Below the pieces are notes generated by a model. It searched no databases. It was not told the DNA's origin and saw only the letters and a program-made list of their open reading frames with translations. Below are positions 5,431-37,367 of a DNA stretch of 43,881 bases, in pieces (within the stretch, counting starts at the first letter, position 1; the number at the start of each line of letters is the position of its first letter). The stretch is taken from the NCBI GenBank assembly GCA_009843635.1, contig VYDB01000080.1, forward strand, positions 1-43,881, given 5' to 3'. Origin of the DNA: Gammaproteobacteria bacterium. GTDB lineage: Bacteria; Pseudomonadota; Gammaproteobacteria; Pseudomonadales; Azotimanducaceae. The position numbers and the translations under genes were made by a program.

Positions 5431-5505
5431 CTGACTGCTCCCTTTGCTTTCTTGATCGTTGAACGAGTTTGTCACACGAACCAATCATTGTCACATGAAT
5501 CAAAT

Positions 5506-11431: not shown

Positions 11432-11637
11432 ACCTAGACTTGCTGACTTTAGTTATTTCCGCTTGCACCGAAAACAGAAAAATACAGGCACTTGATTCGC
11501 CCGAAAACTAGCACACATTTCTGCTGAACGCCACAAAATTCGTAAAATCGCAATAGCACTGGTTTACACGGGCCGATAACGCGGCTAACATCGGCGAATC
11601 CGCGCAAGCAAGGCAAACATGCAAATTGGGAGTGCCC

Positions 11638-12906
11638 ATGAAGCCGGAGGATTTTAAGAGAGGCCCGCTCGATGCCGAAAAACTGGTGGCGGCCATAGAC
11701 CCGGACTACTGGCAGAAATTCGGCTTCCCCCACCCACTGTTCGATCGGCTCAGGAAAGAGGCGCCAATTACCTATGTGGAGCATCCAGACATCGAGCCCT
11801 ACTGGGCAGTGAGCCTAAACCAAGACATTCGCGAGATTTCTCGTAACCCCGCGGTGTTCAGCAATGCAGGGACACTCAGCTTGAATCTGCGGGATGCGTC
11901 GGGCAGTAGTGGCGGAGGTGATATCAAGCCAACGCTGCTCAACATGGACCCGCCGGATCACAATGAGCACAGAGGCATCGTGGCTCAGCGGTTCCAGATG
12001 GCTGAGGTCATCAAGCGTGACGACCCATTTCTTGCGGCTTCAGTTCGAGAAATCCTGGATGGATTCATGGGTGACGGCGGCGTGCGCGAGGGGGATTTCG
12101 TGCAGCCTGCCCAGCGGCTGTCGATTGCTGCCGTCGGTCGGGTTCTGGGCCTCCCGGAAGAGCATTGGGAGCAGGCGTTTGTTTTCGCCAACGCGGTTGC
12201 CGCCAACTCCGACCCAGAATTTATGTTGGGCGAATCGGCAGGAAGTTCCATCGCGGCAGCTCACGCGGGGCTGTTCGAGATCTTTGCCCCGCTCATCGAA
12301 GCTCGACGAAGAACGCCCCAAGACGATCTCGTCACGGTTCTTTCGAACGCTGAATCTGAGGAAATCGACTTTGCGCAACTGGTCATTCATGCCGTGCTGA
12401 TTTTGCTCGGTGGGGTGGAAACAACGCGCAACGTTATGGGCGTTGGCTTGGTGGAGCTTATTCGTCAACCGGAGATCATGCACCGGCTCATCCGAGACTT
12501 GGATCAGATGCCGCTCGCAGTGGAGGAGATGATTCGATGGACAGCACCGCTCGGTCACATGTGCCGAACCGTCAGAAAAGACGTATCCGTTTCTGGAACT
12601 AGATTCCGCGAAGGCGACGTGTTGGCACTGTTCTGGCCATCGGCCTGCCGCGATGAGTCGCTCTTTGCTGATCCGCATGTCTTCCGGATCGACAGAAAGC
12701 CGAATCCGCATCTGGCATTCGGCGTTGCGCAGCATCTGTGTCTGGGTCGAGTGCTCGCCCGACGTCAGATCATCGCGATGTTCAAGGAACTGCTGCCAAG
12801 GCTCGCTGAGTGCGAACTGGCCGGTCCATTGCAGCGGGCTAGGATGCTAATCAACGGATACACGGAAATTCCGCTTCGCTATCGGCTCACGCCGGCAGTG
12901 AGTTGA
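11638..12906 (+). CDS. Cytochrome P450
   Basis: A 422-residue soluble bacterial P450. The start is the ATG at 11638, with GGGAG 5 nt upstream. The I-helix motif LGGVETTRN is at 257-265, the ExxR motif EMIR at about 297-300, and the haem-binding loop FGVAQHLCLG carries ligand Cys368. All core elements are present. The fold is of the class that takes electrons from ferredoxin and hydroxylates lipids, terpenoids or steroids (CYP125/126/142-like in style). No ferredoxin gene is adjacent. It opens the operon 11638-20513 and overlaps the following ligase gene by 4 bp. A first oxidation of an alkyl side chain before CoA activation is plausible but inferred. Confidence 0.92.
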   Translation: MKPEDFKRGPLDAEKLVAAIDPDYWQKFGFPHPLFDRLRKEAPITYVEHPDIEPYWAVSLNQDIREISRNPAVFSNAGTLSLNLRDASGSSGGGDIKPTLLNMDPPDHNEHRGIVAQRFQMAEVIKRDDPFLAASVREILDGFMGDGGVREGDFVQPAQRLSIAAVGRVLGLPEEHWEQAFVFANAVAANSDPEFMLGESAGSSIAAAHAGLFEIFAPLIEARRRTPQDDLVTVLSNAESEEIDFAQLVIHAVLILLGGVETTRNVMGVGLVELIRQPEIMHRLIRDLDQMPLAVEEMIRWTAPLGHMCRTVRKDVSVSGTRFREGDVLALFWPSACRDESLFADPHVFRIDRKPNPHLAFGVAQHLCLGRVLARRQIIAMFKELLPRLAECELAGPLQRARMLINGYTEIPLRYRLTPAVS

Positions 12907-14534
12907 GTGCTCAAGTGACCATTCCCGATTCGCTTCCATTTACGGAGACCGCGGCTGGTGCGATGCGCTGGTTGAGCCAGCATCATGGTGGCAGCAAGAT
13001 GGTCATCGAAGAAGATCGCGTCGCTACCTTTGGGGAAGTTGATCGTGCCTCCGCCGATCTCGCCAAGGCTCTGCTGTCAAGCGGCGTGGGGAAGGGCAGC
13101 CGCATCGCCTTCCTGTTTCCCAATGGCATCGACTTTGCCAAGGTCTTCTTCGCGATCACGCGGATTGGCGCGATCGCGATTCCAGTCAACACCTTCTACA
13201 AGGCCCCTGAGCTGGTCTGGCAGTTGAACCATTGCGACGCCCAGATGCTCATCACCATCGACCGCTTTCTGCACAACGACTATCTCGCCAGGTTGGATGA
13301 GGGCCTTGTCGGCCTGGCCGGCCAGGGCGATGAAATTCTTCTCGAATCAACGCCCTACCTCAGAAAAGTGGTGGTGCGCACCACGGGCGGGCAGGTACCG
13401 GCCTGGGCCGAGGAGATTGAGGCGTTCACGAGCCTGGGCGCGTCCGTCAGTGATTCAATGCTCTGCGCCGTTGAATCTACTGTTGTGCCGGCCGACCAGC
13501 TATGCGTGCTCTACACGTCGGGGAGTTCGGCAACACCCAAGGGCGTTGTACACAGCCACGGTGCGTTGTTACGCCGCACGGCATCGGTTGGTGCGGATTT
13601 CGGCATCGGCCCCGAGGACATCGTTTACAACCCAAGCCCCTTTTTCTGGACTGGGGGTCTCTCCAACGGCCTGCTCTCCACGGTCTTGAACGCAGGCGCC
13701 GTCATGACGGAAGAGAGGTTCGATGCGCCCCGCACATTGGATCAACTTGAGAAACACCGTGTCACCGTTGCCGTCGGCTGGCCTCACTTCGCGGCGTCAC
13801 TGCGTGCGGTGCCGGATTTTTCGAAACGGGACTTGAGCGCTCTGCGCGGCGGCATCCTTACGCCTCTGCTGCTTGGCAATGAACTCGGCGACCCTGGCTT
13901 GACTGCCACCGGCATCGGCATGACCGAATCCGTGGCCCAGCATACCTATGGTGAAAAGGAACCTCTGCCGGAGTCTCTCCGGGGTGCCTATGGCAGGCCA
14001 GCGCCCGGTATAGAACAGATGATCGTCGATGTGGATACCGGCCTTGCGGTGCCGGATGGGCAGGAAGGCGAGCTTTGCATCAGGGGGTACTCGGTGATGC
14101 AGGGCTACTACAAGAAAGAGCGGGAAGAGACGTTCCGAGCAGACGGATTCTTTGCCACTGGCGACCTCGGCGTCATCAGGGACGGTTTCTATTTCTTTAC
14201 CGGTCGCAGGGGTGACATGGTGAAGACCGGCGGCGCGAATGTCAGCCCAGCGGAAGTGCGCAATGCCATGCTCGGCATTGAGGGTGTGCAGGAGTGTTTC
14301 ATCTCCGGTTTGCCCGATCCGGACAAGGGGGAGGTTGTTGCGGCGGCGGTGGTTGTCCACCCGCAAGCAGATTTGACTGCGGAGACAGTGCGTTCAGAGC
14401 TCAAGGCGGTGCTCTCCAGTTTCAAGGTGCCGCAGGTCTTGAAACTAATGCATCCGAGCGACATACCCATGTTACCGACCGATAAAGTGGATCGGCGGGC
14501 GATCATTGGCCTGCTCCAGCAACAGGCTGGCTAG
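12903..14534 (+). CDS. AMP-dependent acyl-CoA synthetase/ligase
   Basis: A 543-residue adenylate-forming enzyme that activates a carboxylic acid to its acyl-CoA. The nucleotide-binding loop YTSGSSATPKG is at 204-214. The hinge and C-terminal signature GRRGDMVKTGGANVSPAE lies near 440-455, and a C-terminal PTDKVDRRAI holds the candidate catalytic Lys. Length fits FadD-like ligases. It starts at a TTG that overlaps the P450 stop by 4 bp, indicating translational coupling; a GTG 12 nt downstream is an alternative start. Next to a P450, it probably activates the acid produced by side-chain oxidation. It differs clearly from the second ligase of the same operon (17810-19414). Confidence 0.9.
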   Translation: MSAQVTIPDSLPFTETAAGAMRWLSQHHGGSKMVIEEDRVATFGEVDRASADLAKALLSSGVGKGSRIAFLFPNGIDFAKVFFAITRIGAIAIPVNTFYKAPELVWQLNHCDAQMLITIDRFLHNDYLARLDEGLVGLAGQGDEILLESTPYLRKVVVRTTGGQVPAWAEEIEAFTSLGASVSDSMLCAVESTVVPADQLCVLYTSGSSATPKGVVHSHGALLRRTASVGADFGIGPEDIVYNPSPFFWTGGLSNGLLSTVLNAGAVMTEERFDAPRTLDQLEKHRVTVAVGWPHFAASLRAVPDFSKRDLSALRGGILTPLLLGNELGDPGLTATGIGMTESVAQHTYGEKEPLPESLRGAYGRPAPGIEQMIVDVDTGLAVPDGQEGELCIRGYSVMQGYYKKEREETFRADGFFATGDLGVIRDGFYFFTGRRGDMVKTGGANVSPAEVRNAMLGIEGVQECFISGLPDPDKGEVVAAAVVVHPQADLTAETVRSELKAVLSSFKVPQVLKLMHPSDIPMLPTDKVDRRAIIGLLQQQAG

Positions 14535-14556
14535 AACGAATGGCCGCAACTGCGTC

Positions 14557-14563
14557 AGGAGGT
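14557..14563 (+). promoter_or_regulatory. Shine-Dalgarno site fixing a TTG start
   Basis: AGGAGGT lies 5 nt upstream of TTG at 14569. It is the best ribosome-binding match in the neighbourhood and places the start of the PPOX-type gene at this TTG rather than at an upstream in-frame codon inside the ligase gene. Confidence 0.75.
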
Positions 14564-14568
14564 GCAAA

Positions 14569-15042
14569 TTGGCGAAGCAAAGAAAACGTATCGCTCTGAG
14601 TGAGGACGAAGTCTGGGCGTTCGTTGCCGAACAACGAGACATGCACGTGGCGACCATCAACAAGGACGGCACGCCGCATCTGACCACGAACTGGTTTGCG
14701 ATGCCGCAGGAAAGGCAGATCGCCTTCAACTCCTATGAGGGTTCCCAGAAAGTCGTCAATCTGCGGCGGGATCCGCGCATCACGCTGCTCTTTGCGGATG
14801 GCGAGACCTACGGCGAACTGCGTGGCGTCTCCATTAAGGGGCGCGTGAGATTCACGGATGACGCTAATGAGAATCTACAGGTTTTACGGGCTATCGCCGA
14901 AAGAAACATGGCTGCTAGTGAAACCCGGCTCACGAAGGGTGCAACGCCAGAGAAGCAAGCTGTCAAGCGAACCTGCATGATCGTTGAGCCCGATCGGATC
15001 ATCAGTTGGGACCACCGCAAACTGGCTGAGAACACAAGCTAG
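14569..15042 (+). CDS. Pyridoxamine 5'-phosphate oxidase (PPOX)-fold flavin/F420 protein
   Basis: A 157-residue split-barrel flavoprotein. The pattern VATINKDGTPHLTTNWFAM followed by FNSYEGSQKVVNLRRDPRITLLF is that of PPOX-class enzymes, including the F420-dependent subgroup. They bind FMN or F420 and reduce double bonds or act on small heterocycles. The TTG start at 14569 has an ideal AGGAGGT 5 nt upstream. It sits 34 bp after the ligase and 19 bp before the amidohydrolase, in the middle of the P450/ligase/aldolase operon. A reductase step on a pathway intermediate is likely. The cofactor cannot be decided, but two luciferase-like genes elsewhere in the window belong to families that also use FMN or F420. 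Confidence 0.8.
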   Translation: MAKQRKRIALSEDEVWAFVAEQRDMHVATINKDGTPHLTTNWFAMPQERQIAFNSYEGSQKVVNLRRDPRITLLFADGETYGELRGVSIKGRVRFTDDANENLQVLRAIAERNMAASETRLTKGATPEKQAVKRTCMIVEPDRIISWDHRKLAENTS

Positions 15043-15061
15043 ATATTTGAGGAGAACTTCA

Positions 15062-16243
15062 ATGCGTAATGTCGATGAGAACAATCTATGGCGCCTCGAA
15101 ACACCGGGGGCGGACGGCTGGGCGAAGAGCGTGTGGCCGGATTCCGACAACAAGTACACGATGATTTCCTGTGACAGCCATGCAGTGGAACCCGTGGACT
15201 TGCTCGCCAAGCGGGTGGACAGCCGATTTCATGATCGATTGCCCCGTGTTCAAGTTGATGAAGACGGGTCGAAGTGGCACATCGTCGAGGGCATGGAACC
15301 TGCGCGCTGGATTATGGACAACGAAGACCTTTCGGGTGAGGACCGGGAGCGCAACGCGGTCGGCACTGACCCCGAAGAGCGGCTGCGCCACCAGGAACGG
15401 GATGGCGTGGACGGGGAGATTATCTTTCCCAACAAGTTCTCCGTGATCTTTGCAACGCGCGACCCGGAGTTCGCCTTCGCCCAGGCGCGCGCCTACAACG
15501 ACTGGGCGTGGGAAACCTACGGGCCGCACGTGCATCGACTGTCGCCGATGGCCTTGATACCGACGATGGACATCGATATGGCCATCGATGAGATCGAGCG
15601 GATCAGGCGGATGGGCTTCCGAGGGGTAACGATTCCGGTCAGGCCGATCTACGGCAGCACCTCTGCGCTGGAAGCCCATTACCACCGCCCCGAATACGAC
15701 CGGCTCTGGGCCTGCTTGGAGGACTCGGGGCTTCCGGTCACGGCTCACGTGGGCACGGGAAAGGATCCGCGAACGACGAGGGGCCGGGGCGGCGCGGTCA
15801 CCAATTACGTGGCGCACGCTCTGGCCCCTTCGGTGGAGTTCATGTCACTGCTGTGCTCGTCCGGGGTCTTGGAGAGATTTCCCGGATTGAGGGTCGTGTC
15901 CGTGGAAAGCGGGGTGGGCTGGTTTCCCTGGTGCGGCCAGGCCATGGACGAGGCCTACCGCAAGCACCATATGTGGTCCTTTCCCAAGCTCAAGCACCTG
16001 CCGAGCGACTATCTCAAGACCCAGTGTTTTGCGACCTTCATGGAAGATCCGGTGGGATTGAGTCTCGCGGAGGAGTTCGGGTACTCGGAATCGATGCTCT
16101 GGTCAAACGACTATCCGCACCAGGAAGGTAGCTGGCCGCACTCGGCGCAAGCGATAGAGCGGCAAATGAACCGATTGTCGGAAGCGACCCGGGCCAAGAT
16201 TCTGGGTGAAACGGCGAAGGCGCTCTTTGGGTTTGATGTCTAG
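15062..16243 (+). CDS. Amidohydrolase family (amidohydrolase-2/COG2159) metal-dependent hydrolase or decarboxylase
   Basis: A 393-residue TIM-barrel enzyme. The ATG at 15062 has GAGGAGA upstream. Near the N-terminus DSHAVEP (38-44) replaces the usual DxHxH strand-1 motif. TAHVGTG supplies a mid-barrel His, and SNDYPHQEGSWP near the C-terminus supplies the conserved Asp/His/Glu. The family includes decarboxylases and C-C or C-N hydrolases related to ACMSD and LigW. Subgroups with this SNDYPHxEG tail are often found beside acyl-CoA and steroid or terpenoid catabolic genes. Fourth gene of the operon, it abuts the DUF35 gene. The reaction is unknown; decarboxylation or ring hydrolysis is possible. 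Confidence 0.85.
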   Translation: MRNVDENNLWRLETPGADGWAKSVWPDSDNKYTMISCDSHAVEPVDLLAKRVDSRFHDRLPRVQVDEDGSKWHIVEGMEPARWIMDNEDLSGEDRERNAVGTDPEERLRHQERDGVDGEIIFPNKFSVIFATRDPEFAFAQARAYNDWAWETYGPHVHRLSPMALIPTMDIDMAIDEIERIRRMGFRGVTIPVRPIYGSTSALEAHYHRPEYDRLWACLEDSGLPVTAHVGTGKDPRTTRGRGGAVTNYVAHALAPSVEFMSLLCSSGVLERFPGLRVVSVESGVGWFPWCGQAMDEAYRKHHMWSFPKLKHLPSDYLKTQCFATFMEDPVGLSLAEEFGYSESMLWSNDYPHQEGSWPHSAQAIERQMNRLSEATRAKILGETAKALFGFDV

Positions 16244-16639
16244 TTGGTCGGGTTGGCGAAAGTGTCGATCAACGACGACAGCGACCTGTTCTGGGCCGGT
16301 TTGAACGAGGGAAGATTGCTCTTTCAAACCTGCAGGGCGTGCGGTGCGCATCGCTTTCCGTTTCGGATGTCTTGCTCGCGCTGCGGGTCTTTCGAAAAGG
16401 ACCTGACTGAATCCAAGGGGTGCGGATTCGTCTATTCCTACACAGTCGTTGAAAGGCCCTTGCTGCCGGGATTCGATGAACCCTACACGGTGGTGCTGGT
16501 GGAGGTGGACGAGGGCGTTCGCTACTTGGGTTTGTATGCTGGCGATGTGGATCCATCCCAGCTCATCGGGTCGCGCGTACGCGCTCGCCTGAACCCTGAC
16601 CAACGCGTGCCCGTCTCCTTTGCGCCTGAAGGCAACTGA
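16244..16639 (+). CDS. DUF35 (zinc ribbon plus OB-fold) acyl-CoA-associated protein
   Basis: A protein of about 131 residues with an N-terminal rubredoxin-like zinc ribbon (CRACG then CSRCGS, four Cys) and a C-terminal OB-fold. DUF35 proteins bind and act as obligate partners of thiolase-fold enzymes. In actinobacterial cholesterol degradation, the DUF35 domain of ChsH2 forms the retro-aldolase with Ltp2. Here it is stand-alone and lies 2 bp upstream of a thiolase-fold gene, which strongly suggests a two-subunit complex. The TTG at 16244 abuts the previous stop, and a GTG at 16262 is an alternative start. Neither has a strong ribosome-binding site, so expression may rely on coupling. Confidence 0.85.
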   Translation: MVGLAKVSINDDSDLFWAGLNEGRLLFQTCRACGAHRFPFRMSCSRCGSFEKDLTESKGCGFVYSYTVVERPLLPGFDEPYTVVLVEVDEGVRYLGLYAGDVDPSQLIGSRVRARLNPDQRVPVSFAPEGN

Positions 16640-16641
16640 AG

Positions 16642-17793
16642 ATGGCTCAAGACGTAGTCATTGCGGGGGTGGGCACCACGGATTTCTCCAAGAATTCCAA
16701 GCGCTCCGAACACCAGCTAGCCGTAGAAGCGATCGTTGCCTGCCTGGACGATGCGGGTATCGGCGCATCGGAAATCGACGGCATGATCACCTTTACGATG
16801 GACGAAACGTCGGAAGTGGATATCCGGCGGGAACTCGGGTGCGAGTCGCTGCACCATTTTTCACGCGTGCCCTTCGGTGGCGGCGGCGGATGCGCAACGG
16901 TCGGCCATGCGGCCATGGCCATTAGAGCGGGCGTCGCCCATTCGGTTGTGGTCTATCGCGCATTGAACACCGCTTCACGGGTGAGATTCGGTTCTGGACA
17001 ACTGACCCCTCCGCCAGAATCGGGCGATCAGCGTTGGTTTACCAATTTCGGTCTGGCCACACCGGCTGCCCGGGTCGGGATTACCGCACGCCGCTACCTC
17101 GAAACCTATGGTTTGGACGATGACGCCTATGCGCCCTTTGCACTCACGGCCAGGGCGTATGCGGTGACCAACCCTGCGGCCTATTACTACAATCGCCCGC
17201 TATCCCGTGATGAATACCTGTCTTCGCCTTGGATCAGCCGGCCGCTCAGACGCTTTGATTGCTGCCAGGAATCCGACGGCGCAGTGGCCTTGTTGGTGAC
17301 GACGGCGGAGCGCGCCAGAGACCTGAGGAAGAAATCCGCCAAGATACTGGCGAGTGCCCAGAATGCAGGCTTGGAACAGATTGGCTTGGCGCAATACTGG
17401 TGCGAGGACATCTTGAAGCTGCCGGAGGTATCGGGCCTCAAGGAACAGCTACGCAAGCAGTGTGGGATGGCGCCTCGCGACGCGGACGCCGCCATGCTGT
17501 ACGACCACTTCACGCCGCTGGTCGCCTTGCAATTGGAGCAACTGGGGTTCTGCCAGGATGGTGAAGCAACCGAGTTTGCGGCCCGCGGCCACCTGGGTGT
17601 GGACGGTTCCATGCCCATGAACACCCACGGTGGCCACTTGGGGGAGGCCTACCTTCATGGCATGACGCACATTGGCGAGGCCCTGCGCCAGTTGCGCGGG
17701 GAAGCCGTTAACCAGGTGAGCGATGTATCTGCGGTCTTTGTTGCCTCGGCGGCTTCGACGCCCGGCAGTGCGTTGATGCTCGGACAGTTGTAA
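16642..17793 (+). CDS. Thiolase-superfamily protein, Ltp2/SCP-X-like (probable acyl-CoA retro-aldolase)
   Basis: A 383-residue thiolase-fold protein. The canonical thiolase His motif (GHPxGATG) is replaced by NTHGGHLGEAYLHGM at 327-341. A YDHF motif at 287-290 stands where thiolases have other catalytic residues. In the steroid side-chain aldolase Ltp2 two tyrosines in the matching motifs do the chemistry. Here the candidates are Tyr287 and Tyr337, 50 residues apart. Cys84 (GGGGGCATVG) lies close to the usual thiolase nucleophile region and needs alignment to interpret. Together with the DUF35 gene 2 bp upstream, the best call is a retro-aldolase cleaving a beta-hydroxy acyl-CoA. Ordinary thiolase or lipid-transfer activity is the alternative. 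ACS2 follows after 16 bp. Confidence 0.85.
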   Translation: MAQDVVIAGVGTTDFSKNSKRSEHQLAVEAIVACLDDAGIGASEIDGMITFTMDETSEVDIRRELGCESLHHFSRVPFGGGGGCATVGHAAMAIRAGVAHSVVVYRALNTASRVRFGSGQLTPPPESGDQRWFTNFGLATPAARVGITARRYLETYGLDDDAYAPFALTARAYAVTNPAAYYYNRPLSRDEYLSSPWISRPLRRFDCCQESDGAVALLVTTAERARDLRKKSAKILASAQNAGLEQIGLAQYWCEDILKLPEVSGLKEQLRKQCGMAPRDADAAMLYDHFTPLVALQLEQLGFCQDGEATEFAARGHLGVDGSMPMNTHGGHLGEAYLHGMTHIGEALRQLRGEAVNQVSDVSAVFVASAASTPGSALMLGQL

Positions 17794-17809: not shown

Positions 17810-19414
17810 ATGGTGATCGACACTGAAAGTACCTACATAAGTGTTTTGTTTGATCGGGCGGAGGAGTCACCCGGCCAACTCTGGATGCAGGAGGTCGATG
17901 GCGATGAGTTGACCTATGCGCAGTCGCGCGAACTGGCGTGCAGGTGGGCGGATGCGCTCAGGCAGTTGGGCGTGGGCGCCGGCGACATGGTTGCGACGAT
18001 CATGGAGAACTGTCTCGACAGCCAGCATGTCTGGCTGGGTGCAGCCTTGGTGCGGGCAGTGGAAGTGCCGCTCAGCCCGCTGCTACGAGGTGAATCGCTA
18101 GTGCACGCATTGAATGACAGCCGTTGCAAGGTGGTCGTCGTCGCTGAGCCGTTTCACCAGCAGATTGAAGAAGTTAGCGAGAGGCTTAAGCATCTCGAAC
18201 GAGTCGTTGTCGCGCTGGCCTCTGAAACCACGCCAGCGTCATCCTTCGACATCATCAGCCGTGAGGCGTTGATGGGCCGCGCCAAGGCCGCAAAGGACTT
18301 CGAGCTTCCGAAACCGGAAGACATCGCGTGCGTTCTGTACACCTCCGGCACCACCGGGCCTTCGAAAGGGACGCTGATCCCTTGGGCACAGCTCAACGCG
18401 AACGCTGCAGCCACGGATGTCACGCCCTTTGGCGATTCAGAGGCGTTTTACTACACCGGAGCGGCAAATCACGCGGGTGCCCGGAGCCAGCCGCTGCTGA
18501 TGGCCTCCGTTGGCGGGCGGTTCGTGATGCGGCCCGCTTTCAAGACCCAGGAATTCTGGGCGGACGTTGATCGGTACGGATGTACCTTCACGATCATGGT
18601 GGGTGCGATGGCGCACTTTATGATGAGCCAGCCGCCATCGCCCAAGGACTGTGACCACGCGCTGAAGTTTGTGCTCATGGCGCCGGTGCTGCCCAACATT
18701 GAGGCGTTCAACCAGCGCTTTGGCGTGGTGACCTGCACGGGCTACAGCATGACGGAGCTGAGCGGCCCCATCACCAACCCCAACTGGAAGATCGACATAC
18801 CTTCGAGCTGCGGCAAGCTTCGGGCGGGCTGGCCGCACTACGATGCCCGGCTGGTTGACGAAGATGGCCGGGATGTTCCGGTTGGAACGGAAGGCGAGCT
18901 GCTGGTTCGCACCGAGGCGCCGCACACGCTGAATGCCGGTTACCTGAATCGTCCCGACGCCACGGCCGAGGCTTGGCGGGATGGCTGGTTTCATACCGGC
19001 GATGTGTTCAAGAAGGACGAGCAAGGCAACTACTACTTCATAGACAGACGCAAGGACGCCATTCGCAAAAGCGGAGAGAACGTCTCCTCCTTTGAAGTGG
19101 AGATGCAGATAGCGGCGCATGAACAGGTCGCTGAATGTGCGGCCATCGCTGTGCCCGCGGACAATGTCGAAGACGAGATCAAGGTGTTTTTAGTGCCCGC
19201 CGACGGTTGCCGGATCGATCCTGAAGCCATCGTGAAGTTCGCCGCTCGAACGATGCCCCGCTACATGGTGCCTCGGTACATCGAGGTTGTTGATGAGCTG
19301 CCTAAGACCCCCACGCTTCGCGTGCAAAAGGCCGAGTTGCGCAAGCGTCCTAGGACGAACGAATGGGATCGTGTGGTGGCGGGCATTGACATTAAAAGGG
19401 TCGAGGGGAGCTGA
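17810..19414 (+). CDS. AMP-dependent acyl-CoA synthetase/ligase (second in operon)
   Basis: A 534-residue adenylate-forming ligase. The phosphate loop YTSGTTGPSKG is at 177-187, then GYSMTELSG in the acyl/adenylate pocket, and RRKDAIRKSGENVSSFEVE at the domain hinge. The style is that of the crotonobetaine/carnitine-CoA ligase group (CaiC-like) rather than classical FadD. It has a GGGGAAGG site just before the ATG. It lies 16 bp after the thiolase-fold gene and 4 bp before the alcohol dehydrogenase. Two ligases in one operon suggest two activation steps, for instance a side-chain acid and a ring-derived acid. Substrates are not predictable. Confidence 0.9.
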   Translation: MVIDTESTYISVLFDRAEESPGQLWMQEVDGDELTYAQSRELACRWADALRQLGVGAGDMVATIMENCLDSQHVWLGAALVRAVEVPLSPLLRGESLVHALNDSRCKVVVVAEPFHQQIEEVSERLKHLERVVVALASETTPASSFDIISREALMGRAKAAKDFELPKPEDIACVLYTSGTTGPSKGTLIPWAQLNANAAATDVTPFGDSEAFYYTGAANHAGARSQPLLMASVGGRFVMRPAFKTQEFWADVDRYGCTFTIMVGAMAHFMMSQPPSPKDCDHALKFVLMAPVLPNIEAFNQRFGVVTCTGYSMTELSGPITNPNWKIDIPSSCGKLRAGWPHYDARLVDEDGRDVPVGTEGELLVRTEAPHTLNAGYLNRPDATAEAWRDGWFHTGDVFKKDEQGNYYFIDRRKDAIRKSGENVSSFEVEMQIAAHEQVAECAAIAVPADNVEDEIKVFLVPADGCRIDPEAIVKFAARTMPRYMVPRYIEVVDELPKTPTLRVQKAELRKRPRTNEWDRVVAGIDIKRVEGS

Positions 19415-19418
19415 GCAG

Positions 19419-20513
19419 ATGAAAGGCGCGATCATGACCGTTCCCGGCGAGCCGCTGGAACTGCTGGACATTGAATTGGGAACCGTTGAACCCCATGAGG
19501 TTCAGGTGCGGGTTGAAAGGGCAAGCGTCTGCCACACGGACCTGACCATCGCGCAGGGCAACTTCCCCATGCCGGTTCCGGCAGTCATCGGCCACGAAGC
19601 GGCTGGTGTGGTGGAGGCGGTAGGTGATCAGGTCACACGTCTGAAACCGGGCGACCGAGTCATCGCGTTTGCCAACCCGTTTTGTGGACACTGCGGGCAC
19701 TGCCACCGGGGAGACACCTTTTTGTGCACAGGCGAGGCAACTTTCCGCGCTCCCGAGGGCGGCCAACGGGTCACCATCAATGGTGATGGCGCCTTCGCGA
19801 TGGCTGGCGTGGGTGCGTTTTCGGAAACGATGCTGACCCACGAGAACTCCCTGGCACCCGTTCCCGGCGAGTTGCCCTTCACCGAGGCCACGCTTTTGGG
19901 TTGCGGTGTCTCCACGGGGCTCGGAGCGGCAATGAACACCGCAGGTGTTGCGGACGGGGATACGGTCGCGGTGCTAGGTTGCGGCACCGTTGGCTTGTCC
20001 GCCATTCAGGGTGCGCGTGTGGCTGGCGCTTCACGAATCTTCGCTATCGATATCCTGCCGAGCAAACTACAGATTGCCCAGTCGGTTGGAGCGACCGACC
20101 TCATCGATGCGCGCGACCCGGACGCTGTGAACGAGATTTTGGAGTCGACGTCCGGAGGCGTGGACTCGGCAATCGAGTGCATCGGCAAACCCGAAACAAC
20201 CGCGATGGCCGTGCAGGTTGTAGGACGTGGCGGCACGGCCGTGTTGGTTGGCTTCATGCCGCTAGGCACGAATATTGAACTACCTGGCACCGAGTTTCTG
20301 TACATGGGGAAACGGCTGGTCGCCAGCGTGCTCGGCTCAACCAACTTCCTCCGAGACCTGCCCAAGTACGGTGCCTTGATCGAGTCGGGCGAGGTCAACC
20401 TAGAAGCACTAACCACTAATCACTTTAGTTTCAACGACATCAACCTGGCCATGTCGAAGCTTCACAATGGCGAGATTCTGAAACCAATCATCGATATCGG
20501 CGAAGCCGCCTGA
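19419..20513 (+). CDS. Zinc-dependent alcohol dehydrogenase (MDR superfamily)
   Basis: A 364-residue medium-chain dehydrogenase/reductase that interconverts alcohols and aldehydes or ketones with NAD(P). Catalytic zinc ligands are Cys38 and His59-Glu60 of the GHE motif, with a further ligand downstream. Structural zinc ligands Cys89, Cys92, Cys95 and Cys103 are all present. The Rossmann motif GCGTVG lies near 190. Layout resembles class III/aryl-alcohol dehydrogenases. The ATG at 19419 has GAGGGGAG upstream and sits 4 bp after the ligase. As the last intact gene of the operon, it may act on the carbonyl fragment released by the retro-aldolase. A severed luciferase-like gene follows after 13 bp. 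Confidence 0.92.
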   Translation: MKGAIMTVPGEPLELLDIELGTVEPHEVQVRVERASVCHTDLTIAQGNFPMPVPAVIGHEAAGVVEAVGDQVTRLKPGDRVIAFANPFCGHCGHCHRGDTFLCTGEATFRAPEGGQRVTINGDGAFAMAGVGAFSETMLTHENSLAPVPGELPFTEATLLGCGVSTGLGAAMNTAGVADGDTVAVLGCGTVGLSAIQGARVAGASRIFAIDILPSKLQIAQSVGATDLIDARDPDAVNEILESTSGGVDSAIECIGKPETTAMAVQVVGRGGTAVLVGFMPLGTNIELPGTEFLYMGKRLVASVLGSTNFLRDLPKYGALIESGEVNLEALTTNHFSFNDINLAMSKLHNGEILKPIIDIGEAA

Positions 20514-21866: not shown

Positions 21867-21930
21867 TCGAAGGTTACAAGTGTGTATACCAAATATTTCA
21901 GCTAATATGACATTACACTGAATTTTTTGC

Positions 21931-21958
21931 TTGATTGATGATAAATTGACCTGATAAT
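21931..21958 (+). promoter_or_regulatory. Probable sigma-70 promoter for the NTF2-like/nitroreductase pair
   Basis: TTGATT at 21931-21936 and GATAAT at 21953-21958 are separated by 16 bp in an AT-rich gap. The start codon of the next gene is 30 bp downstream, leaving room for a short leader with GGGAGAA as ribosome-binding site. Confidence 0.5.
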
Positions 21959-21988
21959 TCACGAATTCATCGAAATGGGAGAATCTCC

Positions 21989-31841: not shown

Positions 31842-33026
31842 ATGCGCATATCAATGATCACGGAACTGCAACGGTCGGTTTCCGACGACGGGTTGGTCGA
31901 TTTCGAGGCGACCTACCGAGAATCGCTGGCGCAGGCCCGGCTTGCTGACGAAGCCGGCTTCAGCACCATTTGGATCACCGAGCACCACTTCCTGCCCACC
32001 TTCTCGGTGGCGCCCGGCTCGGACCAGTTCCTGGCAGCCGTTGCGGCGCAAACCAAGAACATCCGGGTGGGCACTGGCGTCGTCGTCCTGCCCTATCACC
32101 ACCCCCTTCACGTTGCCGAACGCATCGCGATGCTCGACCTGATCTCGGAGGGCCGCGTGGAGTTCGGCACCGGGCGGGGCGGGCCCTACGAGGTGACCGG
32201 TCACAGCATCGACCCGCGTGACACCCGCGCCATGTGGGAGGAGTCGCTGGCCTGCATCGAGGGGATCTGGTCGGGCTATCCGGACGAGTTCAGTTGGGAG
32301 GGCAAGCATTGGCAGATTCCGCCACGGGTCGTCGTGCCCCAACCCGTTCAGAAGCCAATTCGGCGTTGGCTGGCCTGCGCACAGCCAGACAGCTTCGGCG
32401 TTGCCGCCGACCACGGCATGGGGGTGCTGGCCTTCGTGCCTAGCCCGCCCAGCGTCACCGCACCCCTGATCGAGCAATACCGCGAGCGCATCGCCAGCTA
32501 CCCCGGTCCTGCGAAACAGCGCAACGAGAACTGGGCGAGCATGACGTTTGGCGTGTGCGGCGAAGACGGCCCGGCGGCCAGGGAACTCGTCAGCCGGTCG
32601 TTGAAGGTGTTCTTCGGCCCGGATCGTCCGTACAACAAGGCCGCTGCGGAGATCACCAAGAATCTAATCGAGGCCTGGGACGGGGAGATTCCTGACGACC
32701 TAAAGGTCCACCTGACCAAGGAACACGAAACCGCGCCCATCAACGCCGCAGAAGTGGCGACGGCAACCGGGCTCAGTGCCGCGGCGCGTTCCGCGAGGCA
32801 AGACGGCGAGCTGGACTCCTGGGAAAGGCTCGACCCCGAGACGCTGTCCAACTCCGGAATCACGGTGGCCGGCACGCCGCAGCAATGCGTCGACTCGCTG
32901 AAGCTCTATGAGGAGAACGGCGTGGACGAGGTCCTGGTGCTGGTGCAGAACGAAACGATACCGCACGAAGTCTCAATGAAGACGATTCGCCTATTTGGCG
33001 AGCACGTCATTCCGCATTTCCACTAA
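31842..33026 (+). CDS. LLM class (bacterial luciferase-like) flavin-dependent oxidoreductase
   Basis: A 394-residue TIM-barrel monooxygenase. The opening MRISMITELQR and the segment ADEAGFSTIWITEHHF are classic for the LuxA-like group. RVGTGVVVLPYHHPLHVAERIAMLDLISEGR and the later GTPQQCVDSLKLYEENGVDE complete the family pattern. It should use FMNH2, or F420, for oxygenation or reduction. GGAG precedes the ATG by a few bases. It stands alone on the plus strand, with 326 bp of divergent DNA from the TonB receptor ATG, and converges within 12 bp on the epoxide hydrolase. It is much longer than, and distinct from, the 312-residue LLM protein at 41295-42233. Confidence 0.9.
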   Translation: MRISMITELQRSVSDDGLVDFEATYRESLAQARLADEAGFSTIWITEHHFLPTFSVAPGSDQFLAAVAAQTKNIRVGTGVVVLPYHHPLHVAERIAMLDLISEGRVEFGTGRGGPYEVTGHSIDPRDTRAMWEESLACIEGIWSGYPDEFSWEGKHWQIPPRVVVPQPVQKPIRRWLACAQPDSFGVAADHGMGVLAFVPSPPSVTAPLIEQYRERIASYPGPAKQRNENWASMTFGVCGEDGPAARELVSRSLKVFFGPDRPYNKAAAEITKNLIEAWDGEIPDDLKVHLTKEHETAPINAAEVATATGLSAAARSARQDGELDSWERLDPETLSNSGITVAGTPQQCVDSLKLYEENGVDEVLVLVQNETIPHEVSMKTIRLFGEHVIPHFH

Positions 33027-33038
33027 CCTTGGGGATGG

Positions 33039-34181
33039 CTAACGCAGCGCCGTGAAGAAACTCGTCACGTCCTGCGCAAACAACTCAGGCTGCTCCATGG
33101 CCGCGAAATGCCCGCCTCGGTCCATCTCCGTCCAGTGGACGATGTTGTAGCGCCGCTCCAGCCACGCCCGCGGCATCAGGGCCAGTTCCTTGGGAAACCG
33201 GGCCACCCCAGTCGGCACGGACACCCGTGCCGCGCCATCCGGCACCTGCATTCCCGGCAGGTTGTTCTCGAAGTAGAACCTTGCCGCGGAAGTCGCCGTC
33301 TGCGTAACCCAATAGGTCATGACGTTGGCAATCAGGTCGTCGCGGGAGAACACGGACTCGAGGTCACCGCCGCAATCGCTCCAGGAGCGGAACTGCTCGA
33401 CGATCCAACCCAGCAGACCGGCTGGCGAGTCGTTAAGCGCCAGACCGATGGTCTGGGGCTTGGTGCCCTGAATCCTAGCGTAACCCGTCTCGCGGGCCAT
33501 ATGCTCCTCGAATTGTTGCAGCCGCTGCGCTTCTTCAGCGGTCAAGTTTCCGGGCTGTTCGGGCGCAGGGGTAATGGGCATATTGGTGTGCAGGCCGGCA
33601 ACGTGCGGTTCGTCGAGTTCGGCAAGCTTGGTCGTGATCATCGCACCCCAATCGCCGCCCTGGGCGCCGTAGCGCCGATAGCCAAGCTGGCGCATCAGCT
33701 CCGCGAAGGCCCGGGCGGTTCGCTCGATGTTCCAGCCGCGCTCTCGCGTCGGCCCGGAGAATCCGTAGCCGGGCAGCGACGGAATGACGAGATGGAACGC
33801 CTGACGCTCCTCGCCGCCGCCCCCGGGCGGGTCGGCAAGCCGATCAATGACCCCAAGGAACTCGATCACTGAACCAGGCCAGCCATGCACGATCAACAGC
33901 GGCAGAGCGTTCGGGCGCGGTGACCGCACGTGGATGAAGTGGATGCTTTGGTTGTCGATGCTCGTTGTGTAGTGGGGCAGGCGGTTCAACCGGTCTTCGT
34001 ACGCCCGCCAGTCGAAGTCCGAACGCCAGTACGCCACGAGATCCCGGATGTATGGCATATCAATGCCCATGCCCCAATCGCCCTCGCTAAAGTAGTCGGG
34101 GAAGCGGGTCAACGCCAGTCGTGCGTTCAGATCGGCGAGGGTATCGTCCGATACATGAATCCTGTAGTCGTCAAACAGCAT
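33039..34181 (-). CDS. Epoxide hydrolase family protein (EHN domain plus alpha/beta hydrolase)
   Basis: A 380-residue enzyme that opens epoxides to diols. The N-terminal EHN domain (about 1-90) is followed by the oxyanion motif HGWPGS at 99-104. The nucleophile is Asp177 in GGDWGA and the base is His358 in GGHFAAME. The family also needs a lid tyrosine, for which several candidates exist. The ATG at 34181 has GGGAG upstream and overlaps the amidohydrolase end by 11 bp. It is the last gene of the operon with the two acyl-CoA dehydrogenases and the amidohydrolase. The fold resembles juvenile-hormone/microsomal-type and bacterial limonene- or styrene-degrading relatives. The substrate is unknown. 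Confidence 0.9.
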   Translation of the reverse strand: MLFDDYRIHVSDDTLADLNARLALTRFPDYFSEGDWGMGIDMPYIRDLVAYWRSDFDWRAYEDRLNRLPHYTTSIDNQSIHFIHVRSPRPNALPLLIVHGWPGSVIEFLGVIDRLADPPGGGGEERQAFHLVIPSLPGYGFSGPTRERGWNIERTARAFAELMRQLGYRRYGAQGGDWGAMITTKLAELDEPHVAGLHTNMPITPAPEQPGNLTAEEAQRLQQFEEHMARETGYARIQGTKPQTIGLALNDSPAGLLGWIVEQFRSWSDCGGDLESVFSRDDLIANVMTYWVTQTATSAARFYFENNLPGMQVPDGAARVSVPTGVARFPKELALMPRAWLERRYNIVHWTEMDRGGHFAAMEQPELFAQDVTSFFTALR

Positions 34182-35019
34182 TTTTTTGCTCCCGAGCGGG
34201 TTTTCGTTTGGCGAGAACGACCCTTTTCGCGTTTTCGTAGAGGTAGGCTTCCATTACGCCCGGGCGAAGCTTGTCGGCAATCTCCTCTGAGCACTCCAGA
34301 CATCGCTTCATGTCCAGAACGGGGTGGTCGGATGACCACATGACCCGGTCGCGGCCCCGCGTATTCATGAAGTCAAACAGTTCGTCGGGCAGGTATTTCG
34401 GCATCCAGGCGGAGGTCATCATGTACAGGTTCGGGTACTTGATCATCAGGCGCATGGCCGTGCCCCACCAAGGGTCCGCGCCGTGCGTCATGATGACCCT
34501 GAGCGCCGGAAAGTCCCGGCAGACCCGGTCGAGATAAATCGGGTTCTGGCTTTCGGCATCGAGCTTCGGACCTGGTATGCCCGTGAACAAGCTGAGCGGC
34601 ACGTCGAGTTCGACGCACTTGGCGTACAGGGGATAGTAGTAGGCGTGCGTCGGCGGCTTCTCCATCAGCGAGGGCATTACCCTGAACATCGTGACATGCT
34701 CGGCATCGAGCAGGTCTTCCGCCGCCCACACGCTTTCGAGCAGGCGGTTTACGTCAACGAGCGGACACAGGCTGAATCGGTTCGGATGCTGCCGCGAAAA
34801 CTCGAGAATGCGGGGTGGCGGCTTTTCCGGGTCTATGGTCAGGACGCAATGCTCGACGCCGACATCGTCCATCTCAGCGAGCAATCCGTCGATGGTGCAA
34901 TCCTGAAAGAAATCGACCCCGCGCTTGAAGTAAAACTCGTTGACGTCCTGAGTGAGCGGATTTTCCAGGTTCTCAGTAGCAAAGTTCGGATTGACGAACA
35001 GATCGATGGCTTTTCTCAC
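34171..35019 (-). CDS. Amidohydrolase family (COG2159-like) protein
   Basis: A 282-residue TIM-barrel protein, shorter than the amidohydrolase at 15062. The start DLFVNPNF lacks the usual DxHxH of this superfamily. THGADPWWG and WSSDHPVLDM carry the mid and C-terminal His/Asp residues. Without the first His pair the metal site may be reduced, as in some ACMSD-like decarboxylases or inactive homologues. It starts at GTG, with AAGGA 7 nt upstream, 36 bp after the long acyl-CoA dehydrogenase. Its 3' end overlaps the epoxide hydrolase start. Function uncertain: decarboxylase or hydrolase on a catabolic intermediate. Confidence 0.82.
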   Translation of the reverse strand: MRKAIDLFVNPNFATENLENPLTQDVNEFYFKRGVDFFQDCTIDGLLAEMDDVGVEHCVLTIDPEKPPPRILEFSRQHPNRFSLCPLVDVNRLLESVWAAEDLLDAEHVTMFRVMPSLMEKPPTHAYYYPLYAKCVELDVPLSLFTGIPGPKLDAESQNPIYLDRVCRDFPALRVIMTHGADPWWGTAMRLMIKYPNLYMMTSAWMPKYLPDELFDFMNTRGRDRVMWSSDHPVLDMKRCLECSEEIADKLRPGVMEAYLYENAKRVVLAKRKPAREQKNAV

Positions 35020-35055: not shown

Positions 35056-36294
35056 TTATTGTTTGCCGCGCCGGTCTCGCGGCAGCCCTAGCAGCTGTTC
35101 GCCGATGGCGTTTCTTTGCATGTTCGAGGTGCCGCCGCCGAGGGTGTTGGCGAGGCTCGCGAAGTAGGCGTTCAGCCAACGCCCGTTGCTCACCACCTTC
35201 GGCAGATACTGCATGGAGGTCAGGTCCTGCTGGCGTGGCGTGAGCAAGGCATCGCTGCCGATCAGGTCGAGCGCGAGTTCCGCGATGGACTCTTGGATTT
35301 TCGAGGAAAGCAGCTTGCCGGTCTGCATCTCTCCCGCCATCTTCTCGCCGAGCCCTCGCGACTCGGCCGCCATCAACCGGTCAACCAGCGTTTCCTGGCA
35401 GGCCACCCAAGCTTCGATCTGGCTAAGGCGCTGACGAATGTCCGCATCGAGAATCGCTGGATTGCCGTTCATCTGCGCTCGCTTGGCCGTTCGGCGCGCC
35501 AGTTCCACTAGGTGAGCGAACTGGCCGCTGACCACCGAGGTGTCGGCCAGCCACAGCCGCTCGTACTTCAGCACGCTCTTGGTAACGCTCCACCCGCCGC
35601 CGCGGGAGCCAATGATGTTGTCGGCAGGGATTCTGACATCGTCGAAAAACACCTCGCAAATGTCGTCGCGCACGCCATGCATGGTCTTGATGACGCGGAC
35701 CTCGATGCCTGGCGTGTCCATGGGCACGATCAGGAAGGAAACACCCCGGTGCCTCGGTTCCTCGGGCTCCGTTCGAAACACGCCGAACATCATGTTGGTG
35801 CAGTGCGCATTGCTGGTCCAGATTTTCTGGCCGTTGATCACCCAGCCATCAGGCGTCAGCTCAGCGCGGCTGGTCAGCGAAGCTAGGTCGCTGCCTGCGT
35901 TGGGCTCGCTGTATCCCTGGCACCAGTCCAGTTCTCCGGAGAGCGTCGGTGCGATGTACTCGGCTTTTTGCTCATCCGTGCCACATTCCAGCAGCGCCGG
36001 CACCAGGAACATGGGACCGTTGGGGGTGCTCTCCAGGTAGGGCACGTCGCTCAGCGCGAATTCGCGCTTGATCACCATATCCGCCCTGAGGTCCTGGGGC
36101 AGGCCACCGCCGCCGTATTCGCGCGGAAACGAACGGTGCAGCAGGCCGGCTTCTATGGCGCGCTTCTGCCAGAGAATGACCTGCTGGCGATGAGGGAGTT
36201 CGGCTTCTTGCCCCGCTAGCGGCCAACTCGACCGGCAGAACGCCCTGGCGCGTTGCCGAAGGTCGTCGTATTCGGGCCCGTAAGGACTGCTCAT
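35056..36294 (-). CDS. Acyl-CoA dehydrogenase (longer subunit of a pair)
   Basis: A 412-residue FAD-dependent acyl-CoA dehydrogenase forming an alpha-beta double bond. The middle domain has CQGYSEPNAGSDLASL (125-140) and WVINGQKIWTSNAH (151-164), the FAD and substrate contacts of the family. C-terminal helices run to QRNAIGEQLLGLPRD. The start at 36294 overlaps the preceding gene's stop by 4 bp (ATGA). Adjacent long and short acyl-CoA dehydrogenases recall the heteromeric FadE28/FadE29-type (ChsE1/ChsE2) enzymes of steroid side-chain degradation, in which one active site forms per heterodimer. Whether these two associate is inference. An upstream in-frame extension reads as nonsense and was left out. 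Confidence 0.92.
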   Translation of the reverse strand: MSSPYGPEYDDLRQRARAFCRSSWPLAGQEAELPHRQQVILWQKRAIEAGLLHRSFPREYGGGGLPQDLRADMVIKREFALSDVPYLESTPNGPMFLVPALLECGTDEQKAEYIAPTLSGELDWCQGYSEPNAGSDLASLTSRAELTPDGWVINGQKIWTSNAHCTNMMFGVFRTEPEEPRHRGVSFLIVPMDTPGIEVRVIKTMHGVRDDICEVFFDDVRIPADNIIGSRGGGWSVTKSVLKYERLWLADTSVVSGQFAHLVELARRTAKRAQMNGNPAILDADIRQRLSQIEAWVACQETLVDRLMAAESRGLGEKMAGEMQTGKLLSSKIQESIAELALDLIGSDALLTPRQQDLTSMQYLPKVVSNGRWLNAYFASLANTLGGGTSNMQRNAIGEQLLGLPRDRRGKQ

Positions 36295-37367
36295 TGGGTC
36301 CACCCGGACAGTTGCGCACAGCGCTCGCGGTGGATCTGCGGCGTGCCCAGGTAAGTGCGGTCGAACAGCGCGCGCTTGAAGTAGATCTGCACGTCGCTCT
36401 CCCAAGTGAACCCGATGCCGCCGTGCAGTTCGACCGCACCCCGAGCAATCCGCATGGCCTGATCGGTGATGTGCGCTTTCGCCATGGCAGCGCTCTTTGC
36501 TGCTGATTCCGGTTGCTCGTCGAACTCCCCGGCGGCCTTCCAAAACAGCCCGCGAGCGGTAACTGCAGCCAGGGCGTGCTCAGCGAGCTGGTGCTTGACC
36601 GCCTGAAACCCGCCGATGGGCTGGCCGAACTGTTCGCGGGTTTTCGCGTATTCCACGGTCAACTCCAGCAGCCTGTCGGCGGCACCGAAAGCGTCCGCTG
36701 CCAGCAGGACGAGCAGCGCATGGCCGAGCGCTTGGCCCGGAAGGTCGGGAAGGGCTTCCACGGCAGCCTCGTCGAAGGAGACCTCGAAAATGCTTCGGCT
36801 GCGGTCGATGCCTTGGCAGTTGCTGGCGCTGACGTTCGCCCGCTCGGCTTCCAGCACGCCGAGTTCACCATTTGCGCAGCCGATGACGAACAGGTCGGCA
36901 ACATCGCCCAAGGGCACCGTTTCGACCGTTGCGGCATTGCTGCCCCCCGGTTCAACCTGCCAATCGCACCATGCCGATCCTTTTCCGCTGCTCGATAAAG
37001 CCACGGTGCCGATGCGCTCGCCTGCCGCCAGCCCGGGAAGCAAGCGTTCCTTCTGTGACTGAGTGCCGCCGAGCGCGATCGCAAGCCCCGCCAAGGTGTG
37101 ACCCTCCAGGAACAGCGGCGCGGCGTGTCGCCCAAGCTCTTCGGAGACCAGGGCGGCTTCCATTAGGCCAAGGCCCGAACCGCCTTGGCCGGGCGGGATG
37201 CAGATGCCGGTGAAGCCGAGTTGGCTGATCCCGCTCCATAGGTCTTCGTCAAAGGTCAGGTCCGTATCGTAAGCGGTGCGCACTCGTGCGGAAGTACACT
37301 CACTGGCCAGAAAGTCGTGAAAGCCCGATTGAACGAGTTGCTGTTGCTCGGTGAGCCAGTAATCCAT
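36291..37367 (-). CDS. Acyl-CoA dehydrogenase (shorter subunit of a pair)
   Basis: A 358-residue acyl-CoA dehydrogenase. The N-terminal helical domain starts MDYWLTEQQQ. The middle domain is degenerate: the usual TEPxAGSD block is not visible, and SSSGKGSAWCDW stands there instead. The C-terminal domain is well kept (YAKTREQFGQPIGGFQAVKH and ARGAVELHGGIGFTWES). A shortened partner with a weak middle domain next to a full one is the pattern of heteromeric enzymes such as FadE28 with FadE29. It starts at ATG 37367 with no strong ribosome-binding site and is first of the four-gene minus-strand operon. Divergent SMP-30 begins 155 bp away. Confidence 0.9.
   Translation of the reverse strand: MDYWLTEQQQLVQSGFHDFLASECTSARVRTAYDTDLTFDEDLWSGISQLGFTGICIPPGQGGSGLGLMEAALVSEELGRHAAPLFLEGHTLAGLAIALGGTQSQKERLLPGLAAGERIGTVALSSSGKGSAWCDWQVEPGGSNAATVETVPLGDVADLFVIGCANGELGVLEAERANVSASNCQGIDRSRSIFEVSFDEAAVEALPDLPGQALGHALLVLLAADAFGAADRLLELTVEYAKTREQFGQPIGGFQAVKHQLAEHALAAVTARGLFWKAAGEFDEQPESAAKSAAMAKAHITDQAMRIARGAVELHGGIGFTWESDVQIYFKRALFDRTYLGTPQIHRERCAQLSGWTQ

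Follow-up and report, generated by a model that had tools for sequence, protein, structure and literature searches.

The DNA analysed here, referred to as the window, covers positions 1–43,881 of contig VYDB01000080.1 of a gammaproteobacterium from the family Azotimanducaceae (assembly GCA_009843635.1). It encodes a stand-alone DUF35 protein and an Ltp2-like thiolase-fold protein which, judging from their sequences, are in all likelihood a retro-aldolase. The pair very probably cuts carbon chains off steroid- or terpene-like molecules. The gene immediately upstream encodes a relative of PtmU3-type oxygenases, predicted to be a hydroxylase, from the group of amidohydrolase-related dinuclear oxygenases (ARO). 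The DUF35/Ltp2-like pair by itself is not very novel; the new element, and the best-supported new idea, is that the aldolase cleaves what the neighbouring oxygenase produces. Such an oxygenase-coupled retro-aldol module is somewhat probable. The features that carry this reading are as follows.

15062..16243, + strand: PtmU3-like amidohydrolase-related dinuclear oxygenase, proposed beta-hydroxylase (phmmer match and ligand positions)
16244..16639, + strand: stand-alone DUF35 protein of 131 aa with a zinc ribbon and an OB fold, proposed aldolase partner subunit
16642..17793, + strand: Ltp2-like thiolase-fold protein of 383 aa, proposed retro-aldolase
16879..16881, + strand: codon of Gly80, in the column of the thiolase nucleophile (alignment)
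17500..17502, + strand: codon of Tyr287 in YDHF, equivalent to the TcLtp2 base Tyr294 (alignment)
17650..17652, + strand: codon of Tyr337 in GEAYLHG, equivalent to the TcLtp2 acid Tyr344 (alignment)

An earlier note, made from the letters of this DNA, had located and described the DUF35 and thiolase-fold reading frames correctly. The DUF35 protein matches the Pfam families zf-ChsH2 and OB_ChsH2_C, both above cut-off, and the Cys-x2-Cys...Cys-x2-Cys ribbon of its translation consists of C30, C33, C44 and C47; the TTG start of the frame was set mechanically. The thiolase-fold protein matches Pfam Thiolase_N and Thiolase_C_1 and scores 497.6 bits against NF005892 (PRK07855, "lipid-transfer protein"), above the curated cut-off of 469. 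The nearest solved chain is 6ok1_A, the Ltp2 of T. curvata (TcLtp2), with 378 bits and 48.7% identity over the printed segment. The AlphaFold model of the protein has a predicted local distance difference test score (pLDDT) of 85.3, with residues 333–336 below 50, and its top Foldseek matches are the 6ok1 Ltp2 chains (TM 0.93, 47% identity).

Catalytic columns were compared in an alignment of 93 relatives and four solved chains, from which three Ltp2-like sequences shorter than 331 aa had been removed beforehand. The column of Tyr287 contains tyrosine in all 93 relatives and that of Tyr337 in 90. The GHPxGATG motif of thiolases is missing from the window protein, as the earlier note had observed together with the two tyrosines, and likewise from most of the aligned relatives. 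Where the thiolase 7yvy has the motifs HDAF and GHPVGATG, the window protein has YDHF and GEAYLHG, and the cysteine of the 7yvy CASG motif, which we take to be the thiolase nucleophile, corresponds to Gly80. Thus, in comparison with 7yvy, the window protein has none of the marks of SCP2-type thiolases, which are the nucleophilic cysteine, an HD-type motif with histidine, and GHPxGATG. The earlier note had proposed that its retro-aldolase reading would fall if Cys84 aligned as a thiolase nucleophile; the reading survives, because the nucleophile column holds Gly80 and Cys84 lies four residues further on, where TcLtp2 also has a cysteine. The two retained tyrosines and Gly80 therefore back a retro-aldolase over a thiolase. 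In TcLtp2, Tyr294 is the base and Tyr344 the acid (PMC12329534). The YDHF histidine, a proposed oxyanion-hole residue in TcLtp2, is not universal, since the column of His289 contains alanine in 54 of the 93 Ltp2-like proteins, many of which have a fused ChsH2.

The window protein forms a clade of its own with the aldolases of three related loci, L001–L003. The clade has 100/100 support and a long stem, and TcLtp2 belongs to a different group. The mark of igr-type loci, a fused MaoC-DUF35 ChsH2 and a ChsH1 beside Ltp2, is absent from the window. The Ltp2-ChsH2(DUF35) aldolases of T. curvata (6ok1), M. tuberculosis and C. testosteroni (ORF43) share with the window pair the fold, the DUF35 partner, the YDHF motif, the two catalytic tyrosines, and the absence of a thiolase nucleophile. 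By contrast, the window DUF35 is not fused to MaoC, its aldolase belongs to a separate supported clade, and ChsH1 and ChsH2 are missing from the block. A plain igr operon was rejected as an explanation, because the window lacks a fused ChsH2 and the genome lacks a match spanning its two parts. The Sal-Shy(DUF35) bile acid aldolase (9myr) is also proteobacterial and likewise combines a thiolase-fold retro-aldolase with a DUF35 domain; however, Sal uses Tyr302 and Cys304 of a YDCY motif and is 29.2% identical to the window protein (PMC12329534), and the DUF35 of Shy is fused to a hydratase domain (PMC12329534; PMC11321319). The window protein has YDHF instead of the Sal motif with its catalytic cysteine.

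Both Ltp2 (PMC12502768) and Sal (PMC12329534) of the proteobacterium C. testosteroni have been characterised, so the position outside actinobacterial steroid loci, which the earlier note had presented as new, is not. The separation of DUF35 from MaoC, also emphasised there, is correct as a fact and largely loses its novelty. Among the 93 Ltp2-like proteins, 56 are accompanied by a fused MaoC-DUF35 protein, 33 by DUF35 alone and four by no visible DUF35. The Atf1-ChsH4 system of Mycolicibacterium neoaurum also comprises an aldolase and a stand-alone DUF35 partner gene, and ChsH4 is proposed to staple a hydratase to Atf1; its operon differs in containing a reductase and a regulator, with no ARO named in the available text (PMC10398937); the two systems are compared here by their descriptions. 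In C. testosteroni, the MaoC and DUF35 parts remain functional when expressed apart (PMC12502768). A stand-alone DUF35 was therefore rejected as a novelty. Nine Halieaceae-type loci (L040, L046, L047, L050, L055, L056, L058, L067 and L078) contain an acyl-CoA dehydrogenase-DUF35-LTP copy near an igr-type copy, where LTP is the Ltp2-like gene, and the nine copies form a clade of their own (100/100). An Ltp2-like/DUF35 pair is also present on a contig titled as a metagenome-assembled genome (MAG) of Bifidobacterium breve (L080), which is probably mis-binned.

The gene that mattered most is one that the earlier note had passed over, the Amidohydro_2 gene at 14984–16243. Its open reading frame (ORF) opens with TTG at 14984 and contains an ATG at 15062, and its stop codon ends one base ahead of the DUF35 ORF as called. 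The protein scores 103.3 bits against Pfam Amidohydro_2 (cut-off 26.4), and its best solved match in phmmer is PtmU3 (6omp, 188.7 bits), followed by DitZ. Six ligand columns, comprising two Asp, three His and one Glu, were inferred by placing the AibH2 list on the PtmU3 sequence according to motifs and their spacing, and the seventh is Glu313, named for PtmU3 (PMC7782822; see also PMC10401708). All seven inferred PtmU3 ligand positions are kept in the window ARO, as expected of the PtmU3 type, and in the AROs of L001–L003, L143, and contigs C113, C115 and C54 of the same genome; the truncated ARO of L136 shows two, the rest being beyond the visible sequence. PtmU3 is a beta-hydroxylase of CoA-ligated substrates (PMC7782822) and hydroxylates C-5 of diterpenoid-CoA intermediates (PMC10127204). 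The window ARO shares the Amidohydro_2 family with PtmU3, AibH2, SfbO, DitZ and LynB7 and differs from them in standing in a block with a DUF35/Ltp2-like aldolase. Hydroxylation by PtmU3 is said to prepare cleavage of the platensimycin A-ring.

AROs recur beside DUF35 and aldolase genes. Among loci collected by Ltp2 similarity, 8 of 33 stand-alone DUF35 pairs have an ARO within the fetched stretch, as opposed to none of 56 fused ones, the four sequences without a visible DUF35 being left out; the Fisher p of 2e-4 is indicative only, because L039 contributes a weak, split ARO, all eight cases come from about four lineages, and the stretches differ in length. The genome to which the window belongs has ten DUF35 loci, each with an aldolase-family match, and three of them have a same-strand ARO within 3 kb, compared with 0.10 expected at random. 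A set of 53 close AROs was assembled from 50 found at E<=1e-110 in 145 related genomes, one from a phylum-wide sample, and two from the same stretches. In 25 of them, a DUF35 gene and an aldolase-family gene lie on the same strand within 3 kb, whereas about 0.5 would be expected at random. These random-placement figures assume the pair number of the window's own genome, and take no account of catabolic clustering or common ancestry. The order is ARO-DUF35-LTP in two cases, LTP-DUF35-ARO in nine and ARO-LTP-DUF35 in 14, and two of the 25 AROs flank one and the same pair. In L159, the pair adjoins the ARO on the opposite strand.

The varied gene orders and aldolase lineages are a better argument than the random-placement figures. 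On the aldolase tree, from which two short aligned sequences were excluded, the label "ARO-adjacent" has to change 12 times, and well-supported branches force at least eight of these changes. Among the proteins encoded next to an ARO are the window clade (YDHF, GEAYLHG), the C113 lineage (YENF, AECYMHG), three proteins that group 100/100 with Sal of C. testosteroni (YDCY or YDCF), the protein of L196 (YDAF, SEAYVHG), and the truncated protein of C115 (YDCY). Contigs C113 (L125) and C115 (L126) of the window's genome each carry a further aldolase-DUF35-ARO module in another gene order, and proteins of the C113 type (YENF...AECYMHG) recur in many genomes of the family. In the phylum-wide sample, at least two of 398 genomes, one of them the window's own, have an ARO at E<=1e-50; this is a lower bound, because scoring was limited to four candidates in each genome. 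AROs of the close type are therefore known here mostly from this family.

The aldolase and oxygenase genes belong to a longer block, and the earlier note had named its P450, two ligases and alcohol dehydrogenase rightly. The other genes of the block, and further window genes with relatives in the related stretches, are listed here.

11626..12906, + strand: cytochrome P450, first gene of the block (65–73% identical in L001–L003)
12903..14534, + strand: acyl-CoA ligase 1, AMP-binding (62% in L002 and L003, absent from the L001 block)
14506..15042, + strand: small PNPOx-fold protein (upstream of the ARO in L001–L003, 57–75%)
17810..19414, + strand: acyl-CoA ligase 2, AMP-binding (76% in L001, 70% in L003)
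19287..20513, + strand: zinc alcohol dehydrogenase (73% in L001, 55% in L003)
31842..33026, + strand: luciferase-like monooxygenase (92% in L001, near the block)
33039..34181, - strand: epoxide-hydrolase-type protein (90% in L001)
34171..35019, - strand: second Amidohydro_2 protein (91–92% in L001 and L131, 75% in L003)
35056..36543, - strand: acyl-CoA dehydrogenase (upstream of the block in L002 and L003, 70–71%)
37523..38365, + strand: SMP-30/gluconolactonase-like protein (57% in L003)

The core order is P450, ligase, PNPOx, ARO, DUF35, LTP, ligase and alcohol dehydrogenase. The block is kept in the three MAG stretches L001–L003, of which L001 is titled gammaproteobacterial and L002 and L003 alphaproteobacterial, with core proteins 54–89% identical. 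The L001 aldolase is identical to one from a genome of the window's genus, in keeping with a gammaproteobacterial host. The ARO is the best-kept of them (89% in L001, 74% in L002 and L003). L001 lacks ligase 1, L003 has an extra aldehyde dehydrogenase, and L002 keeps the block up to the end of its contig inside ligase 2; this conservation is more than chance. The best solved match of the P450 is CYP125MRCA, followed by P450terp. CYP124 and CYP142 rank lower, and further down the matches include entries named steroid C26-monooxygenase. The PNPOx-fold protein is possibly a redox partner. The alcohol dehydrogenase gene probably starts at about 19419, because the ORF matches its family only from residue 45 onwards. 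Three MaoC profiles found no MaoC domain in the window, and none was detected at E<=0.001 among the 40 window ORFs given to Pfam. Downstream of the block, at 20679–23253, are sulfotransferase (20679), SnoaL-like and nitroreductase-like genes, for which no match at E<=1e-20 was found in the fetched stretches L001–L003.

The proposed module would work as follows. The P450 and the alcohol dehydrogenase would act on a substrate resembling a steroid or terpenoid and oxidise one of its methyl or alcohol groups in the direction of a carboxylate, from which a ligase would form the CoA thioester. The PtmU3-like ARO, by its homology and kept ligand positions, would then hydroxylate the beta carbon directly with O2. 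The DUF35/Ltp2-like pair would cut the alpha-beta bond, with Tyr287 as the base taking the proton of the beta-hydroxyl and Tyr337 as the acid protonating the enolate. By analogy with TcLtp2 chemistry, cleavage would yield a ketone or aldehyde together with a short acyl-CoA, which would be propionyl-CoA where the alpha carbon bears a methyl group. The ARO would thus take over the work that an acyl-CoA dehydrogenase and a MaoC hydratase do in igr-type loci, which could account for a DUF35 without a fused hydratase. The distinct cleavage pathway suggested in the earlier note is supported by the context, namely an aldolase outside the TcLtp2 group, the missing igr hydratase partners and the adjoining ARO; the side chain that it named is a putative substrate. 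A broader proposal, more tentative than the module itself, is that a general oxygenase-aldolase route for branched acyl-CoAs, in which a dinuclear TIM-barrel oxygenase irreversibly hydroxylates the unactivated beta C-H bond in a single step before the aldolase cuts, making dehydrogenase and hydratase dispensable, has been assembled several times with Ltp2-like, Sal-like and other lineages. The stand-alone DUF35 may then hold ARO and aldolase together, in the way that ChsH2 tethers the hydratase.

The rest of the genome offers a possible role for the block. Contig C19 (L087) encodes an enoyl-CoA hydratase above the PRK07938 cut-off, an extradiol dioxygenase below its cut-off (237.7 bits, cut-off 366), and FabK-like and CoA-transferase genes; we link these four to HsaC, EchA20 and the Ipd enzymes. 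HsaA-like (300 bits, cut-off 450) and HsaD-like (195.5, cut-off 400) matches on the contig are also below their cut-offs. The cluster suggests, without proving, a steroid degrader of the 9,10-seco type. In the 96% complete assembly, neither a second Ltp2 above cut-off nor a match spanning the two parts of fused ChsH2 was found, and therefore the block may stand in for the igr operon, for example C17 hydroxylation of an acyl-CoA with a C3 side chain followed by release of propionyl-CoA. C24-branched sterols or diterpenoid acids are equally open as substrates.

Several observations weigh against the coupling of oxygenase and aldolase. The AROs of L020, L021 and L063 keep six ligands, the seventh being V, I or A, and the L039 ARO is weak and split. 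The model of the window ARO is poor (pLDDT 60.7), so its top Foldseek match, PtmU3, adds little. The published AROs AibH2 and SfbO are found beside a small Rieske ferredoxin gene (PMC10811679), and no Rieske family was seen among the 40 scanned window ORFs. Of the 53 close AROs, 28 fail the linkage rule, two of them with one partner only and seven with less than 3 kb of sequence on one side. L127 (contig C54 of the window's genome) and L190 share a recurring P450-ARO-short-chain dehydrogenase/reductase arrangement without an aldolase, and the ARO neighbour in L155 is thiolase-type (HDAF, GHPGG). The chance figures overstate independence, because the linked copies are related. Nor does DitZ supply proof of oxygenase-aldolase coupling, judging from seven loci inspected among 25 plasmid records with a DitZ-like protein: in Massilia and Sphingomonas the neighbouring gene is annotated as a thiolase, and that of Sphingomonas has an ordinary GHPIGATG motif; Rhodococcus rhodochrous has a DUF35 gene at a distance of about 4 kb; and the other four have neither thiolase nor DUF35 in the stretch shown.

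The pair might instead be an ordinary Ltp2-type aldolase whose beta-hydroxyacyl-CoA comes from a dehydrogenase and a hydratase encoded at other loci, with the ARO hydroxylating a different position, decarboxylating or serving another step. Classical dehydrogenation is possible because of the acyl-CoA dehydrogenase at 35056–36543, a relative of which opens the L002 and L003 stretches. Contigs C62, C54 and C19 have weak matches to the MaoC part of ChsH2, for 25 of the 33 stand-alone pairs the fetched stretch contains no ARO, the stand-alone ChsH4 is proposed to join a hydratase to Atf1 (PMC10398937), and LynB7, which is related to PtmU3 and shares its metal site, acts as an oxidative decarboxylase (PMC10127204). 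This explanation is unlikely, however, given a window in which no MaoC domain was found and an ARO that abuts the DUF35 gene, exceeds the other core proteins in conservation (74–89%) and recurs with different aldolase lineages. It is improbable that the block tailors a biosynthetic product, in the way that PtmU3 does for platensimycin: the closest characterised oxygenase relative is biosynthetic (PMC7782822, PMC10127204) and a sulfotransferase gene lies downstream, but the window has TonB receptors, a sulfatase, two ligases and acyl-CoA dehydrogenases, and the genome has the steroid-ring-like catabolic cluster. A thiolase or acyltransferase such as the benzoylsuccinyl-CoA thiolase BbsAB or PhlABC has the same fold and a DUF35 partner, and BbsB and PhlC are detectable relatives; they score 57 and 64 bits, however, as opposed to 378 for Ltp2. 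With nucleophile and motif columns that do not fit, the thiolase reading was rejected, and the chance that the pair belongs to either kind of enzyme is very small.

If the oxygenase-coupled module is real, these aldolases would have a second way to a beta-hydroxyacyl-CoA, by irreversible oxygenation instead of hydration, the equilibrium of which is unfavourable (PMC8399759). It would also give a role to "amidohydrolases" of unknown function next to DUF35 genes, and could provide a biocatalyst pair for cutting hindered side chains. Bile-salt loci with an induced "amidohydrolase" would merit a second look; in Caenibius, for example, cholate induces such a protein about 21-fold, and it has been interpreted as a possible conjugate hydrolase (PMC12882949). 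No proposal of an ARO-aldolase module was found in the literature searched on PtmU3, platensimycin ring cleavage, and amidohydrolase with DUF35 or steroid aldolase, which is weak evidence of absence with subscription papers mostly outside the scope; the available text of PMC10391625, on the chemical synthesis of platensimycin, yielded no enzyme step. A 2021 study, according to its title, suggested a hydroxylation step in side-chain degradation by Sphingobium Chol11. In that strain, a review states, homologues of Sal1, FadA5, Sad and Sal2/Ltp2 were not found (PMC8399759). In P. abietaniphila, 5-hydroxy-dehydroabietic acid has been found, and mutants of ditF, which encodes a putative sterol carrier-like protein, lose growth on several resin acids (PMC13063091).

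At 3421–6987 of the window, a TonB receptor gene adjoins a sulfatase gene, which perhaps serve the uptake and desulfation of a sulfated substrate.

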